From positions 1 to 40,382 of the IMG/VR virus record IMGVR_UViG_3300049484_000143: a stretch of 40,382 nucleotides of DNA; one strand, 5' to 3'. The stretch's first letter is position 1. Each line of letters starts with the position of its first letter. The stretch is from a virus. This document shows positions 6,835-36,272 of this stretch, piece by piece. A program made the position numbers and the translations under genes. The notes beneath the pieces were generated by a model. The model saw only the letters and a list, made by a program, of their open reading frames with translations. It did no database searches and was not told the DNA's origin.

Positions 6835-7034
6835 CCTGCTTCCCCCACAAAACAGCCGTTGACCTGGCTCTACACGCCGCTGTGAAACTCCTGGAGACAA
6901 TGACCCTGGATGCTATTTGCGAGAGTCCAGAGGCTCTTGAACTGGCCTATAGCCTACACCTGGCCGGTTGCACGATTCATGGACAAGACTTGGTAACCTG
7001 GGAAAATAAGAGGAAAAAATATGAGCCAAACTGA
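6831..7034 (+). CDS. Small unknown protein of the lysis cassette
   Basis: A 67-residue soluble protein starting at an ATGA overlap with the holin-like gene, preceded by a strong AAGGAGG box. It is largely helical (Leu/Ala rich) with three cysteines and ends KRKKYEPN. No motif is recognised. Its last 14 bases overlap the following gene, whose start is one of two copies of a duplicated 20-bp sequence. Confidence 0.6.
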   Translation: MTCFPHKTAVDLALHAAVKLLETMTLDAICESPEALELAYSLHLAGCTIHGQDLVTWENKRKKYEPN

Positions 7035-28461: not shown

Positions 28462-28753
28462 ATGGAGTTCCAATAATGAGTAAGTTGTGGTCAAGAGAGA
28501 CTCGGAGATTAAATTTGATCTTACATAATGGACAAGTTATAACCTTTGAAAATATCCATTTGTTGGAAATGGGGGTGAAGAATCGGGAACAATGTGGACA
28601 TTGGAATATGTTGTCAATAAGTTTTCCTCCGTTGCAGAGATAGCATGGGACTTCGGATCTATTCCGCTTTACTGCGTCATTGAAGCACCGAGAGTAGGAA
28701 GAACACTCTCGGTCTTCAATTAGACGTAGGAACTGGGTGTTTAGTCCACCCAT
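28424..28753 (-). CDS. Multi-zinc-ribbon protein
   Basis: A 109-residue protein with three CxxC pairs: Cys37/Cys40, Cys52/Cys55 and Cys74/Cys77, suggesting one or two zinc ribbons, with basic residues between. It starts inside the polymerase C-half gene (13-base overlap) and ends inside the DUF3987 gene (38-base overlap). Such proteins often bind nucleic acid or replication proteins. The ribosome binding site is weak, so translation may depend on the upstream gene. Confidence 0.6.
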   Translation of the reverse strand: MGGLNTQFLRLIEDRECSSYSRCFNDAVKRNRSEVPCYLCNGGKLIDNIFQCPHCSRFFTPISNKWIFSKVITCPLCKIKFNLRVSLDHNLLIIGTPYGQRSNNNHSTP

Positions 28754-29499
28754 GGCTTGAGCTCGCCCCAGTGAGTTCCAACCTTCGCATCACTTGGGAT
28801 AACCAAAACATCACTCTGACCAAAAAACGGGTAGATCTCCAAGGGTTGATGGAGTGCCTTTTTACAAATATCATACGCGGTTTGAACGTGCTTCTCTGGA
28901 ACCTCTACCAAGATAGAGTCATGAACCTGGGCGAGGATAAACGAATCCAGCTCTAAGAGCTGTGGCTCAGCGATGACAATAGCGTCGTTGGTTATCTCAG
29001 CGACGGTGCATTGAGGGAGGAAAGCATAGGCTCGACGGAAAGTGTTGTCATCTAACTTAGAGAAGAAATAACGAGACATACCCTTGGCTGTCTTTAGTGT
29101 TCGGGTCTTTCGAAGAGCCTGTTGGACGCCAGATTGGTATATCTTAATTCCTGGAAACGCTAAATGGATAGAGGCCATGATGATCTTAACCTCTGATTCC
29201 TTCTTATAAACTCCAGAGGATTTTAAAGTAATGTTCATGGTTCGGGCAGAGACGTCATAATTGGTGGCATGTACGCATACTTTAGCAAGCTGACGAAGTA
29301 ACTTCGCTTCTTTGTCGTTGTTGGTTATCCGATCAAGGAGATTGTCATATTTATGGTTAAACATCTCTGCGGCCCGTTGGGTGTGGCAGTCGATTCCTGC
29401 TTGGAAGCCAGCTTTGAGGCCGGAGTCGCCACAGTAATACGCCACGGCACGAGCTTCGGCTTGGGAGAGATCGAACTCAAGAAGGGTTTTTCGTTTCAT
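28741..29499 (-). CDS. DNA polymerase A family, C-terminal half (palm/fingers)
   Basis: A 252-residue protein from ATG 29499, preceded by GGAG at a 6-base spacing. Upstream in-frame ATGs at 29511 and 29505 are less favoured. It holds the catalytic core of PolA: motif A LLEFDLSQAEAR (catalytic Asp10), motif B RQLAKVCVHATNYD (Arg69, Lys73, Tyr81; the usual Phe is His77 and the usual Gly after Tyr is Asp82), and motif C QVHDSILVEV (Asp194; HDS in place of HDE). The exonuclease and thumb are in the separate gene at 29830-31542. The halves are in the same frame but parted by a DUF1937 gene. Presumably they assemble as two chains. Confidence 0.85.
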   Translation of the reverse strand: MKRKTLLEFDLSQAEARAVAYYCGDSGLKAGFQAGIDCHTQRAAEMFNHKYDNLLDRITNNDKEAKLLRQLAKVCVHATNYDVSARTMNITLKSSGVYKKESEVKIIMASIHLAFPGIKIYQSGVQQALRKTRTLKTAKGMSRYFFSKLDDNTFRRAYAFLPQCTVAEITNDAIVIAEPQLLELDSFILAQVHDSILVEVPEKHVQTAYDICKKALHQPLEIYPFFGQSDVLVIPSDAKVGTHWGELKPWVD

Positions 29500-29830
29500 A
29501 GACATCTCCATTGAGATAAGTAATAGGAATTTTATTCTTTACTGCTAGTTCTATTTCGGCCTTTACCCCAACAGACTCCTGCCAACCAGAAAGTTTCAAC
29601 ACGTATAACTTACTACAAGCAGTTACAAATATCTCACCTGAGTGTTGCCAATAGGACCAATCTGTTGGAAGGTCGTGTTCAATAGCAATAGGATGACAGT
29701 GTGAAATTGGTGAATATACAGTTATTCCTTGTCTCATTAACTGAGCAACACAGGCGTTTATCTGCTCGAAGCGTTTCTGTCGAACGGTTAAATCCGGATG
29801 ACTATATGGTGCTGCTAAATAGATATACAT
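29477..29830 (-). CDS. DUF1937 protein (nucleoside 2-deoxyribosyltransferase-like)
   Basis: A 117-residue protein with the full DUF1937 pattern: YLAAPYSHPDLTVRQKRFE (residues 4-22), YSPISHCHPIAI (residues 39-50), LPTDWSYW (residues 54-61) and LSGWQESVGVKAEIELA (residues about 79-95). The fold resembles nucleoside 2-deoxyribosyltransferases, so a role in nucleotide metabolism or base exchange is plausible, not shown. Its ATG overlaps the stop of the UDG-exonuclease gene (TAATG), and its 3' end overlaps the polymerase C-half gene by 23 bases, so it occupies the exact break in the polymerase. Confidence 0.8.
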   Translation of the reverse strand: MYIYLAAPYSHPDLTVRQKRFEQINACVAQLMRQGITVYSPISHCHPIAIEHDLPTDWSYWQHSGEIFVTACSKLYVLKLSGWQESVGVKAEIELAVKNKIPITYLNGDVYETKNPS

Positions 29831-31542
29831 TATTCATAATCTCCCGTGAACAAAGGTCGTGCTTTCCTTGTCACATTTTGAATGTTAGAGCCACTTCCAA
29901 AATGACTCTTTGTCGAACTCAATCTTGTCGTCTCTGTGACATGAAGGTTGATACTCGTCCTGAATTTATTATCTCCATCAGTTGGGCGAGAGATGGCCGA
30001 TAGTAACGAATAATCTGATCTAAGATCAAGAATTGTTCGGGCGACAACCGACTCGTTTGCAATAAGCGCAAGAGTTTCTTCGCTTGAGTCTTTGATGTTG
30101 TAGCCCAAACTACGGAGAAGGTTGACGACTTGTTGAGGGGACTTGACATTGAACGTTTCATCAACATTATACTCCAAACTTAGTCCTTCGAATTTGTCAA
30201 TATAGGTCTTGGTTAGTTGGCCAAGAGGGTAGCCACATTCTTTTAAGGCTTCATTGAAGATGTCATGCTTTGGTTTTATATCTTCATAATATACTCTTTG
30301 AATTATCTCATTCCTCCTCGACTCATCAATAGAAATTCCCTTTCGATGCTGACGAATGGCCCATTTAGCAAGAGGTAATCTCTTGGTGAGGTAGTAATCC
30401 CACATATTGGCTTCGATGGCTTCAGCTTTGAGGGCCATTGCAATTTCATGGGTGCTCATAACATCTTGACAATTATATGAATATGTCTGGGCTACGTTTG
30501 TTTTGGCTTCGTTCCCTCTACCAAGGTATTTGAAATAGGACATATCTGTGTACATGGATGCGAGAAAGCCGAGGTCGTGTTTAAGCTCTGGATAGAGTAG
30601 CGAGTGTAGTATGGCTGTGTCAATGTAGAGGTTGTCTGTGAACCACAACCCGATGTCTCTATCGAGATACGAGCAATCAAACCCAACCGTCTGTCCATTA
30701 ACGAAATGGCTGTTGAGAACACTATCTAACCCCTTCCAAATCTCCGCCTCTTGGTTTAAAGGATAATAAGATTGGCCTGATGTATTTGCGACAAATGGGA
30801 TACACATTGCATAGTCGTCTCGATGGGTTAATCCAATACATTTTACATACTCTCGACGAAGGGTTTCGATGTCGATTGTTATTGAGGTCTCTGCGGGCAT
30901 GGATTTCAATTCTTCGAGATACTCCATGACTTCAATATAGGTCGGGAAGATTTTCTCGGTTCGAATCTTGGGGGTCCAACCCTCGTCAGATACTTTCTTT
31001 GCTTTCATAAGATCGAATACGGAAATATGAAACCAAGGTTGTCTGGCATCTTTCATCTTGGAAGAGGTCATATTATAACATCTTCTGGCGTATGAAGGAT
31101 GAACAATTGGTATAACAAAGCACGTATGATCTCCAATCGTGCTCTGAACAACACTACCCCGCCAGGAGGTAGAGCCTTTATGTCCAATAAGAGCGTAAAG
31201 AGGTTGATCTCCTGCTGCAATAATAACTTTAGGTTTGACAATATTGATTCGTGAATAGAGGTCATCCCACCATTGACGTAGTTCTTCGGTTGGTTCTCTC
31301 TGGCCTTTGTCATTATAGAACCCTCTAAAGTCATTCTTATCTGGTTGGTATTGGACAACATTGTCAATCCGCATGGTGTTCCAAGATAACCCCGCTCGCT
31401 CGCACATTTCTTGAAGGAATTGACCAGACCATCCGATGAAGGGCTTGCCTTTGATTCGCTCATCGGCTCCGAGGGCCTCACCTATAATCATGAGCTTGGC
31501 GTCCATGGGGCCGATTCCCTCAACTTGTCGATTTAATTTCAT
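29830..31542 (-). CDS. Uracil-DNA-glycosylase-like + 3'-5' exonuclease + PolA N-terminal half
   Basis: A 570-residue fusion. Residues about 10-190 match the family 4/5 UDG superfamily: GEALGADERIKGKPFIGWSG (residues 21-40) and HPSYARR (residues 148-154). Residues about 220-380 are a DnaQ-like proofreading exonuclease: Exo I DIE (Asp224, Glu226), Exo II NGQTVGFD (Asp289) and Exo III YNCQD (Tyr356, Asp360). Residues about 390-570 are the PolA thumb and palm entry, ending TRLSSTKSHFGSGSNIQNV then ARPLFTGDYE. The chain stops just before motif A, which is in the downstream gene. A GGGGGAT box precedes the ATG. The upstream ParB-methyltransferase stop is 1 bp away. Confidence 0.82.
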   Translation of the reverse strand: MKLNRQVEGIGPMDAKLMIIGEALGADERIKGKPFIGWSGQFLQEMCERAGLSWNTMRIDNVVQYQPDKNDFRGFYNDKGQREPTEELRQWWDDLYSRINIVKPKVIIAAGDQPLYALIGHKGSTSWRGSVVQSTIGDHTCFVIPIVHPSYARRCYNMTSSKMKDARQPWFHISVFDLMKAKKVSDEGWTPKIRTEKIFPTYIEVMEYLEELKSMPAETSITIDIETLRREYVKCIGLTHRDDYAMCIPFVANTSGQSYYPLNQEAEIWKGLDSVLNSHFVNGQTVGFDCSYLDRDIGLWFTDNLYIDTAILHSLLYPELKHDLGFLASMYTDMSYFKYLGRGNEAKTNVAQTYSYNCQDVMSTHEIAMALKAEAIEANMWDYYLTKRLPLAKWAIRQHRKGISIDESRRNEIIQRVYYEDIKPKHDIFNEALKECGYPLGQLTKTYIDKFEGLSLEYNVDETFNVKSPQQVVNLLRSLGYNIKDSSEETLALIANESVVARTILDLRSDYSLLSAISRPTDGDNKFRTSINLHVTETTRLSSTKSHFGSGSNIQNVTRKARPLFTGDYE

Positions 31543-31543
31543 C

Positions 31544-32863
31544 TCATATCCCCCTTAACCTCAATGTCGCCAACCGGATTAAATCTTCGTTCTTCTCAAT
31601 ACAAAGACACTTTCGGTTTAATATCTTACACGCATCAGCGACATTGCACGAGCCTCCAAAGGGATCAAGCACCATATCTCCAGGCTCGGTGTGAAGATTA
31701 ATTATCTCGGCATGAAGCCCTGGAGGTTTCTCACTCGAATGGATTCGGTTCTGATAGGCCACTTGGAACTCAATCACATTCCTTGAAGCATGGTTTAATA
31801 ATGGTCTCTCTCCTTTCCAACCATAGAATATGGCTTCGTAGTTTAGGGAGTGACGAGTCTCTCGAGAGTCATGGGATAGAACGTGTTTCTTGTACCAAAT
31901 TAATGGAATTATCTCAATTTTAAACCCGGCGGTTTCTAAGATTGTCTGAGCCTCAACTTGTTTCTTCGGAAGTGCAGAGTAGAACATATAAACCGCTGAG
32001 TTATCTTTCAGCTTATTATAACACATGGACATAATTTCAATAATCTTCATTACATCAAAGCCATCATCGTAGACGTCATAGGCTTCTGTTCGGTTGTCTG
32101 CGATTCGTTCCTCGAAGTGGATTCCCCATGGAGGGTCGGTGATGATGAGGTCAATTGATTCATCCTCAATTGTATCAAGATACTCTGAGGAATCTCCACA
32201 AACGATTCTCACATCCCCCTCGTCATAATCTTCAAGATCTAATATATCTGCGATCTGTTTGGCTTTGACTCGTTTGAGACGAGTTAACGCTTTGGATTTC
32301 TGTTTAGTTTCTTTAAGAGTTGGGTCGAGGATCATACCCTCGGAGAGTTGAAGGTAATGAACCACCTCGGAGGGAAAGAGACCAAGCTCGGTGGCTGTAT
32401 CCCGAATGCTCCAGCCGTCTTTCCCAGGACCGGATTTTGCGATGCCAAACTTCATCGTTTGGACGGTGTGATAGGCTTTGACAAGTTCGGCGGCCTCTTG
32501 CCAGAGGAAGTCTTTCCTCCCCATGTTTTCAATGAACTCAATGAGGAGTCGTTCGGATTCAGAGAGATTGGTTCGGATATGAGCCGGAACTTCGGAGTAA
32601 GCGGCTTGTTGGTCGGAAGTTGGCTCAATATCATCCCAAGCTTCTTTGGCTCCTGTGGATAGTAGAGTATATGCCGATACTCTTCGGCCACCTGCAAGGA
32701 GATGGTATTCACTATCTATTTCCTCTACTACAATGAAGTTAAACTTAATCCCCTCGGTTGATCGGATTTTCCGACAGAGGTCGGGGATATCGCCATAGTC
32801 CTTTCGGAACCGAGAGGGAATGGTTATTTGATCAAGGGGTATTAGTTTGGTTGTTTGGGTCAT
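31544..32863 (-). CDS. ParB-like N-terminus fused to DNA adenine/cytosine-N4 methyltransferase
   Basis: A 439-residue protein. Residues about 5-120 are a ParB/sulfiredoxin-like domain (ITIPSRFRKDYGDIPDL, HLLAGGRRVSAY at residues 54-65), and residues 140-200 form a helix-turn-helix-like middle. Residues about 215-439 are an amino-methyltransferase: DPPW motif (Asp243-Trp246), HSSEKPPGLHAEII near 374-388, and the S-adenosylmethionine motif DPFGGSC (residues 400-406). The order (catalytic motif before the SAM motif) is that of the beta class. ParB-methyltransferase fusions occur in many phages and probably protect phage DNA or mark it. Substrate site unknown. Confidence 0.85.
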   Translation of the reverse strand: MTQTTKLIPLDQITIPSRFRKDYGDIPDLCRKIRSTEGIKFNFIVVEEIDSEYHLLAGGRRVSAYTLLSTGAKEAWDDIEPTSDQQAAYSEVPAHIRTNLSESERLLIEFIENMGRKDFLWQEAAELVKAYHTVQTMKFGIAKSGPGKDGWSIRDTATELGLFPSEVVHYLQLSEGMILDPTLKETKQKSKALTRLKRVKAKQIADILDLEDYDEGDVRIVCGDSSEYLDTIEDESIDLIITDPPWGIHFEERIADNRTEAYDVYDDGFDVMKIIEIMSMCYNKLKDNSAVYMFYSALPKKQVEAQTILETAGFKIEIIPLIWYKKHVLSHDSRETRHSLNYEAIFYGWKGERPLLNHASRNVIEFQVAYQNRIHSSEKPPGLHAEIINLHTEPGDMVLDPFGGSCNVADACKILNRKCLCIEKNEDLIRLATLRLRGI

Positions 32864-35175: not shown

Positions 35176-35475
35176 AATCTCCTCGACCCCTTCCATTCTC
35201 ATACAATGGCCCCACCATCTGTCCTCATGATCTGATATACACCTTGGGCACCATTGAATGGTGGAGTTGAGATATGGAGAATTGGGAAGGTGTTGCATGA
35301 GCCCAGAGTATCTCTTTCCACACCCATTACATTTTATCTCCGTTCGTGAGAATAGCCAGGGGTCTTTTTCAAAATCCATGGTCGGAAGCCCGATAGTATC
35401 AAGGGCTTCGATTAATTGGTCAATGTCGAGATCGTCATTCATTTGCTCGATGTCAAAGTCTTTCATTTTGCTCAT
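35170..35475 (-). CDS. Small protein with zinc-finger-like cysteines
   Basis: A 101-residue protein. The acidic N-terminus (residues 5-35) is helical. Cys49, Cys52, Cys76 and Cys79 (KCNGCGK and QWCPRC) form a likely zinc ribbon, followed by His82, Trp and a WWGHCMRM stretch. A very strong AAGGAGG box precedes the ATG at 35475; upstream of it is a stable hairpin and then the structured element at 35523-35726. Confidence 0.65.
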   Translation of the reverse strand: MSKMKDFDIEQMNDDLDIDQLIEALDTIGLPTMDFEKDPWLFSRTEIKCNGCGKRYSGLMQHLPNSPYLNSTIQWCPRCISDHEDRWWGHCMRMEGVEEIV

Positions 35476-35487
35476 GGTTTAAACCTC

Positions 35488-35509
35488 CTTGTGGGGGTTT
35501 CCCCACAGG
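35488..35509 (-). promoter_or_regulatory. GC hairpin next to a strong ribosome binding site
   Basis: On the - strand the sequence CCTGTGGGG-AAA-CCCCCACA folds into a 7-bp stem (TGTGGGG/CCCCACA), immediately followed by AAGGAGG of the next gene. No T-run follows, so it is not a classic terminator. It could control access to the ribosome binding site or protect the 3' side of the structured element above it. Confidence 0.5.
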
Positions 35510-35522
35510 ATTAGATTATAAA

Positions 35523-35726
35523 TTCCAGGGGCAGGATTCAATAACAACAAATGGCTATCTACCTGCTTGTATTATAGGGTAGGCGTGGAGTGGCGACGCC
35601 TCGTTTTGCACTAAACCTGCCAGCCTTACCATACTCATCTGGACTGGTTCGCCCGCGCCGTATCGTTTACCACCGGGTTCAATCCCCTATATTTGATTAC
35701 CCGGTTCCCGCCGGGCCGCCCTGGAA
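35523..35726 (-). ncRNA. Highly structured RNA candidate with pseudoknot, unknown family
   Basis: A 204-nt G+C-rich stretch within an otherwise AT-rich non-coding gap. Helices in + strand coordinates: P1 35523-35530/35719-35726 (8 bp, TTCCAGGG/CCCTGGAA); P2 35531-35535/35562-35566; P3 35581-35586/35596-35601 (6 bp); P4 35614-35623/35639-35649 (9 bp with one mismatch and one bulge); P5 35651-35655/35712-35716; P6 35672-35682/35693-35705 (7 + 4 bp). The P6 loop (35685-35691) pairs perfectly with 35573-35579 (TATAGGG/CCCTATA), a pseudoknot. No ORF fits. Orientation is unproven: one extra G-U pair at P4 and operon position favour -. Not tRNA, tmRNA or any riboswitch I recognise. Confidence 0.6.
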
Positions 35727-35741
35727 ACTTGTTAATTTCTT

Positions 35742-36272
35742 TTACTCCGGCCAACAAGTAGTTATCTGAACTCTCTCTTTACTCGGGTCTTTTCGGTTCT
35801 TCACCATCCGAGCGGAAGCGTTAAACTGAAGCCCGATTAATTTATCCAGGTCAATATCCCCATCAGTGAGGTAATCATCAAGAATGATAATCTCTCCATT
35901 TTCTTTCATCCCGGCTCCAATATCACCTAAGAATTGGAAGAGGAAGGTTGAGGGATCATAGGTCTTCTTCGCCAGGGCGATTTTGGCTTCCGAGGCGTCG
36001 AACATCAAACTATGGAAATGGACCTTCCCTGCAAATTCCTTCGGTTCAAGAACAACCAATTTAAAATTGACAAAATCCATCCAGACATCGGAAGAACTTT
36101 TCTTCTTTAGTTCTGGATAATGGTCTTTTATCTCATTAAACTCTTCGTCACTCATGGTGAACCTTCTTGTCCAGCCATTTTCCCCCGGAGCTTGAATCTC
36201 AAACAAATAATCCCCTGGGGTTAAGTCCTCAAATACCTTCTTCCTTGGGCCAAGACCGCTTAATCTACTCAT
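35742..36272 (-). CDS. DUF669-like candidate single-strand DNA-binding protein
   Basis: A 176-residue protein. The N-terminal region has GDYLFEIQAPGENGW, then WMDFVNFKLVVLEP, KVHFHSLMF and FQFLGDIG, and a C-terminal DLDKLIGLQFNASARMVKNR with an acidic stretch before it. This order fits DUF669, an OB-like family usually placed beside Sak4-like ATPases and RecB-like nucleases and thought to act as the phage SSB. It lies two genes after the Sak4-like gene and directly before the structured RNA element. Confidence 0.7.
   Translation of the reverse strand: MSRLSGLGPRKKVFEDLTPGDYLFEIQAPGENGWTRRFTMSDEEFNEIKDHYPELKKKSSSDVWMDFVNFKLVVLEPKEFAGKVHFHSLMFDASEAKIALAKKTYDPSTFLFQFLGDIGAGMKENGEIIILDDYLTDGDIDLDKLIGLQFNASARMVKNRKDPSKERVQITTCWPE

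Follow-up and report, generated by a model that had tools for sequence, protein, structure and literature searches.

The window analyzed here spans positions 1 to 40,382 of the IMG/VR virus record IMGVR_UViG_3300049484_000143 and contains, between two minus-strand genes, a non-coding gap of 204 nt (35523-35726) that is almost entirely occupied by a structured RNA. The RNA is read from the minus strand, as are the flanking genes (5' end at 35726, 3' end at 35523), beginning 15 nt past the gene that ends at 35742 and finishing about 50 nt ahead of the gene that starts at 35475. An earlier note, made from the letters of the window, had described the gap as free of ORFs; it is indeed non-coding, although short, not gene-like ORFs overlap the RNA (59 aa at 35590-35769, plus strand; 40 aa at 35635-35757, minus strand), and nothing suggests that these are genes.

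Genes in the vicinity are recombination- and replication-like, and include a Sak4-like/AAA_24 gene, a DNA polymerase and a possible PD-(D/E)XK nuclease. The "DUF669-like SSB" and "zinc-ribbon" labels previously given to the flanking genes are without support in Pfam or PHROGs, and protein searches recovered no viral relatives of the flanking 176-aa gene product. The DNA polymerase gene (phrog_17; 28741-31542) is split or interrupted, lying in two pieces (29830-31542 and 28741-29511) with a 117-aa ORF (29477-29830) between them. Also, a single 439-aa protein encoded at 31544-32863 fuses a ParB-like domain to a DNA methyltransferase, with a PHROGs match for each half. On the minus strand, the gene starting at 35475 has AGGAGG as its ribosome binding site; a hairpin (TGTGGGGAAACCCCCACA, 35484-35513) lies immediately ahead of that site and could influence processing or translation.

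The 8-bp closing stem and the several internal helices that had been proposed for the gap are confirmed. The plus-strand fold of the earlier note was dropped for that of the minus strand, because it is the minus-strand reading that agrees with the covariation and with the conserved relatives, and all features below are on this strand. The whole tRNA-like RNA (35523-35726) was delimited by segmentation and by a match (cmsearch, 35525-35724) to a model from another phage. It is closed by an acceptor-like stem, P1, whose 5' strand TTCCAGGG (35719-35726) pairs with the 3' strand CCCTGGAA (35523-35530; segmentation and covariation), with 7/7 modelled pairs showing changes on both sides in the relatives. 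This is followed by the D-arm-like hairpin P2 (CCCGG-CGGGAA-CCGGG, 35700-35715; 5/5 pairs changed on both sides) and by a conserved joining strand, TAATCAAA (35692-35699; TAATCAG in the family), whose AATC is kept in nearly all relatives. In place of an anticodon stem stands P3, formed by TATAGGG (35685-35691) and CCCTATA (35573-35579) according to fold, segmentation and covariation (7/8 pairs changed on both sides). This exact 7-nt complementarity, present where the earlier note had placed it, is not the pseudoknot it was taken for but a nested helix, found in the minus-strand minimum free energy (MFE) fold and covarying among relatives.

Inside P3, strand a (TTGAACC, 35676-35682; from the segmentation) can pair with the complementary strand c (GGTTTAG, 35611-35617), and the overlapping CCCG (35674-35677) can pair with strand b (CGGG, 35652-35655; segmentation and covariation alignment) to form P5, which is 100% paired with little variation, two pairs varying on one side (C-G to U-G). 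Hairpin P6 (CCAGTC-CAGATGAGTATGGTAA-GGCTGG, 35620-35647; 5/5 pairs changed on both sides, 100% paired) carries the near-invariant conserved loop AGATGAGTATGGT. It is followed by the conserved strand TGCAAAACG (35602-35610; family TAAAACG), whose AAAACG is common to all relatives found and part of the search pattern, and by the invariant hairpin P7 (AGGCGT-CGCCACTCC-ACGCCT, 35581-35601), complementary in all relatives. The T-arm-like hairpin P8 (GCAGG ... CCTGC, 35531-35566; 5/5 pairs changed on both sides) abuts P1 without a gap; its loop has 26 nt in the window, against 7-9 nt in most relatives. The window RNA retains P1, P2, P3 and P5-P8, and of the family core inside P3 (AATC ... CGAGA ... 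AAAACGAGGCGTCG-N-ACGCCTA) it keeps AATC and AAAACGAGGCGTCG..ACGCCTA, CGAGA being degraded to GGGGA. A candidate pseudoknot between ATAC (35660-35663) and the GTAT of the P6 loop (35631-35634) is suggestive only; it is paired in 16/16 sequences, with one compensatory change only (L044 in our numbering of loci, ACAC/GTGT), and 33/500 shuffles were as good.

Blastn recovered relatives of the RNA in Klebsiella phage phi1_146050 (76% identity across 100 nt) and also in Aeromonas phage 62AhydR11PP, Hafnia phage Meifeng and the P22-like E. coli phages CUS-3, IME10 and Huey. Two-part core patterns matched 14 and then 73 IMG/VR contigs, the longer pattern having 23 specified bases, so that chance matches are estimated to be negligible. 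They replaced a single pattern, GATACGGCGCGGGNGAA, whose matches in IMG/VR were mostly unrelated and apparently coding.

Since the outer helices were misaligned by MAFFT, a covariance model built from one phage only (L031/L032, identical RNA) was used instead. This model matched the window RNA with 77.5 bits (E = 8.2e-22, E-values being rough), and recovered all 15 other members of the core group, the window included, as well as most members with other inserts. The model-fitted alignment comprises 16 related sequences; both sides changed in 29 of its 40 base pairs, and none of 500 shuffles equalled the observed covariation values; covarying pairs in homologues were the test that the earlier note itself had set for a structured RNA. 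Every pair of P1, P2, P6 and P8 changes on both sides, and P7, being invariant, is neutral in this respect. Overall, 98.2% of cells were paired, compared with 33-44% when partners were slid by 1-3 columns. An alignment fitted to a structure is biased towards it, yet folds and parses made sequence by sequence agree. In a separate parse of 33 sequences, P1 pairing within the same sequence was 1.00 (parser-selected) versus 0.55 for mismatched sequences, and the inner P1 5-mers occurred in 24 distinct versions. The core pattern served as the search query, so that the invariance of the core is partly selected; the outer helices were not selected for. Folding energy compared with shuffled sequence, a further check put forward earlier, was not convincing alone (plus strand, z = -0.83, 35/200 as good; minus strand, z = -1.77, 13/200). 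The proof of the structure is comparative, not energetic, and it demonstrates, at the level of sequence, that the RNA is under strong structural constraint.

The layout of the family runs from an acceptor stem through 0-4 nt, a D-arm, P3 in the place of the anticodon stem and a short variable region to a T-arm of 4-6 bp that directly abuts the acceptor stem. Acceptor, D-arm and T-arm are disposed as in tRNA, with the T-stem set against the acceptor stem. The anticodon stem-loop (5 bp and 7 nt) is absent, and in its stead stands a domain of about 110 nt in the window, longer in some relatives, that carries the invariant motifs CGAGA and AAAACGAGGCGTCG…ACGCCTA. The alignments establish a predicted tRNA topology in which a conserved domain stands in for the anticodon arm. 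D-loop/T-loop kissing by at least 5 Watson-Crick pairs was found in 16 of 33 sequences versus 17% of mismatched pairs, in versions such as GCTGAT/ATCAGC, ACTGAT/ATCAGT, TGATG/CATCA and GTGAC/GTCAC; other members have a tRNA-like 7-nt T-loop (TGCAAAC, TGTAAAT).

This topology, together with the loop contact and a CCA at or near P1 in a few members, could point to a tRNA or tmRNA, degenerate or otherwise unusual, that still undergoes aminoacylation. This is very unlikely, for ARAGORN made no tRNA or tmRNA call in the window and the Rfam tRNA (RF00005) and tmRNA models gave no match at the RNA, an anticodon arm is lacking, and no tag-peptide frame was found either by ARAGORN or, as a conserved frame, by eye in the alignments. 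Moreover, an encoded 3' CCA after the acceptor stem is absent in the window and most relatives, lying directly or almost directly 3' of P1 in a minority only (e.g. CUS-3, L031, L087, L097). Weak, sub-threshold tmRNA matches in three further loci (L104, L106, L107) lie outside the RNA.

The type of insert between CGAGA and AAAACG differs among members; in the group to which the window RNA belongs, the segment GGTG..CGATACGGCGCGGG is conserved and P6 has the loop AGATGAGTATGGT. Strand a has alternative partners, strand c just ahead of AAAACG and strand b, and members with CTTG in strand a (L034, L038, L041, L085, L087, L097, L101, L108) have CAAG in both b and c, so that two exclusive pairings are possible. 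This suggests two exclusive conformations via strand a. Across all families the a:c helix received modest support (25/42 for same-sequence pairs versus 39% of mismatched pairs at a score of at least 4.5), in part because composition is similar, and beyond the core group it is not claimed as proven.

Some members depart further from the common plan. P1 ranges from 5 to 23 bp, L050 having a perfect 23-bp closing stem, and two members (L038, L085) are without D- and T-arms, which indicates that the tRNA shell is dispensable. One copy harbors a complete tRNA-Ala inside its insert (L090, 1453-1526) and two others a tRNA-like sequence (L058 and L060, the latter at 6854-6927); if these were excised, the RNA would fall into two parts. 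In locus L045 (around the core at 903, on the reverse complement), the parts of the RNA follow one another in what looks like a circularly permuted order. Next to this version lies a sequence that resembles a tRNA but has an anticodon/variable region of unusual length and is not called by ARAGORN. The copies with tRNAs in the insert and the permuted L045 imply that the folded core matters, rather than strand order.

Permuted versions are known for ribozymes, and the apparent permutation, a compact multi-helix core and more than 50 invariant alignment columns, many of them unpaired, might indicate a catalytic RNA, self-cleaving or other, with the invariant unpaired strands of the core as active site. 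Rfam ribozyme families, however, gave no match and no catalytic motif is recognisable. The family associates with tRNA arrays, which to our knowledge is untypical of self-cleaving ribozymes, and such a role appears improbable.

In all, 46 distinct copies were collected from IMG/VR phages, from P22-like phages of E. coli, from Klebsiella, Aeromonas and Hafnia phages and from one bacterial MAG contig, and 115 complete E. coli genomes have a site that spans 80% or more of the CUS-3 form; plasmids searched for the RNA gave no match. tRNA genes occur within about 1.5 kb at 18 of the 46 distinct loci, on the same strand every time. In one phage locus (L078) the RNA is immediately upstream of a run of 22 tRNAs, and in the Klebsiella phage copy the region has two tRNA genes and further tRNA-like sequences. 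The copies of CUS-3 and Huey lie between Q and the holin/lysis genes. Judged from these loci, the RNA is clearly present in unrelated phages, often in or beside tRNA arrays. Three loci have small hypothetical proteins annotated in GenBank antisense over the RNA (L001, 2491-2684; L042, 2379-2585; L108, 2584-2781), which are probably spurious genes.

The protein genes flanking the RNA vary among relatives (holin, baseplate, scaffold, ParB-like, terminase), a variety that speaks against regulation in cis. An mRNA element acting in cis on the gene starting at 35475, such as a riboswitch, an attenuator or a translation control, would agree with the setting of the window copy, which separates two genes of the same direction and is closely followed by a GC hairpin and a strong ribosome binding site. 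It is nevertheless unlikely, as relatives share no downstream gene nor, as in riboswitches, a consistent class of downstream gene, their neighbors being unrelated; no terminator or sequestering helix was seen conserved with the RNA, and many copies adjoin or sit in tRNA arrays. The earlier note had also considered a replication-origin structure. An origin or packaging structure acting as single-stranded DNA would suit the window copy, near recombination and DNA polymerase genes, but it is hardly credible for the family. Its location is not conserved, relatives sitting in lysis, tail, head and tRNA neighborhoods; it is always co-oriented with neighboring tRNAs; and its helices tolerate G-U pairs, as expected for RNA.

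The best explanation as a whole, which we regard as probable on sequence grounds, is that 35523-35726 (minus strand) is a phage gene whose product is a stable non-coding RNA, acting in trans and belonging to a new family that is tRNA-shaped and associated with tRNA loci. The structured RNA that the earlier note saw here, without a recognised family, thus stands, its strand, tRNA-like topology and broad phage distribution having been overlooked. Such an RNA would presumably be transcribed within a longer, polycistronic operon transcript and excised by processing of the tRNA or rRNA type, possibly through RNase P (at the acceptor/T stack), RNase III (in members with a long closing stem) and RNase E. 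The 23-bp closing stem of L050 is as expected of an RNA excised by RNase III, while the absence of CCA in most members and the variable length of P1 mean that processing by RNase P is not universal. The tRNA-shaped shell would supply folding, stability and processing, and the invariant inner core (CGAGA, AAAACG, the P7 loop and AATC) would be the working part, binding a host component conserved across bacteria. As a guess, this component might be the tRNA/translation apparatus or a tRNA-attacking enzyme, and in the infected cell the RNA might then act as a decoy or modulator.

The outer acceptor, D-arm and T-arm sequences (GTTGTGGTGAATGCGCAGGCTGATGCGC ... GCCGGAGATCAGCACCGGC) recur, slightly varied, in P1, HK629, Klebsiella phages KlebP_265 and Madison, and IME207, whose shell RNAs are without the AAAACGAGGCGTCG core and have inserts that look unrelated; AAAACGAGGCG is also missing from the shell-bearing P1, HK629 and several Klebsiella phages. 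The shell with other inserts was seen in the form GTTGTGGTGAATGCGCAGGCTGATGCGC ... GCCGGAGATCAGCACCGGC-CACCACAAC at L104 (phage P1, OP279344.1 around 65619-65750), L105 (HK629), L106, L107 and L110, and P1 has more than one shell element behind its tRNA-Asn and tRNA-Thr genes. A second small recurring element, GGTAAGAGCATT ... CAGTGCTCTTATC, lies immediately upstream of the shell (L043, 2284-2349; L104, 1440-1512; L106; L109; L110). It is possibly another tRNA-like RNA, and its P1 copy has a canonical T-arm, GGGTTCGAATCCC.

The occurrence of one shell with differing inserts suggests a modular chassis. A tentative extension, to which we give somewhat less than an even chance, is that the tRNA-shaped shell is a general phage chassis whose inserts are interchangeable, in P1, the lambdoid phages and elsewhere, the insert of the window being a widespread "cargo" with an invariant core. 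If so, nature would have its own version of the engineered tRNA scaffold, and a class of stable effector RNAs, possibly acting on translation or against tRNA-targeting defences, would lie concealed among phage tRNA genes.

Conservation across unrelated phages probably means that the RNA bears on something that all bacterial cells share. It can be tested now, as it occurs in the E. coli phages Huey, CUS-3 and IME10. No RNA is annotated at the locus among the GenBank records examined, and records show either nothing or spurious ORFs at the site. The RNA may help to explain the carriage of tRNA arrays by phages, and suggests that these arrays hide genes other than tRNAs. Large structured RNAs that are commonly tRNA-adjacent are known from phages and prophages, namely GOLLD and ROOL. 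No prior description of the present RNA was found in the open literature; subscription papers lay largely outside the search, so that one cannot be excluded.

Rfam 15 gave no match at the RNA in the window and 22 relatives, and the lack of a recognised family asserted earlier holds for the window both at gathering thresholds and up to E = 5. GOLLD and ROOL, which have been described as large structured RNAs of phages and prophages often near tRNA genes (PMC12286853), are much larger, differ in sequence, and their Rfam models had no match. Bacterial Y RNA/YrlA, which mimics tRNA and is bound by Ro60/Rsr, is likewise non-coding with a tRNA-like module, and the literature cited in one paper reports Y RNAs for phages too (PMC12282133). 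Rfam, its Y RNA models included, gave nothing for the window RNA up to E = 5, and no TROVE (Ro) protein is encoded in the 40-kb record of the window, possibly a genome fragment. Among prophage RNAs of lambdoid regions, STnc100 and PasA-D (PMC13192938), STnc100 is found near the related shell in Madison and has a sub-threshold match in P1, with no match to RNAs of the window family; the Pas RNAs are of the Hfq type with a 3' terminator stem, unlike the window RNA.

There is also a likeness in plan to tmRNA (ssrA), in which a tRNA-like end domain is also combined with a long helix and structured domain in place of the anticodon arm, and for which permuted gene forms exist, as L045 appears to be in the present family. 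In contrast to tmRNA, the window RNA has a real D-stem, no tag frame that could be found, no general CCA and an unrelated core sequence. With respect to location, other P22-like phages, such as L and Sf6, have real tRNA genes where the late operon starts, after Q/gene 23 and before the lysis genes (PMC8022706), the same slot that is occupied by the RNA in CUS-3 and Huey. Unlike those tRNAs, the RNA of CUS-3 and Huey is not decodable, an insert of about 130 nt replacing the anticodon arm. We take the window RNA to represent a new RNA family, whose outer tRNA shape is itself a known theme.
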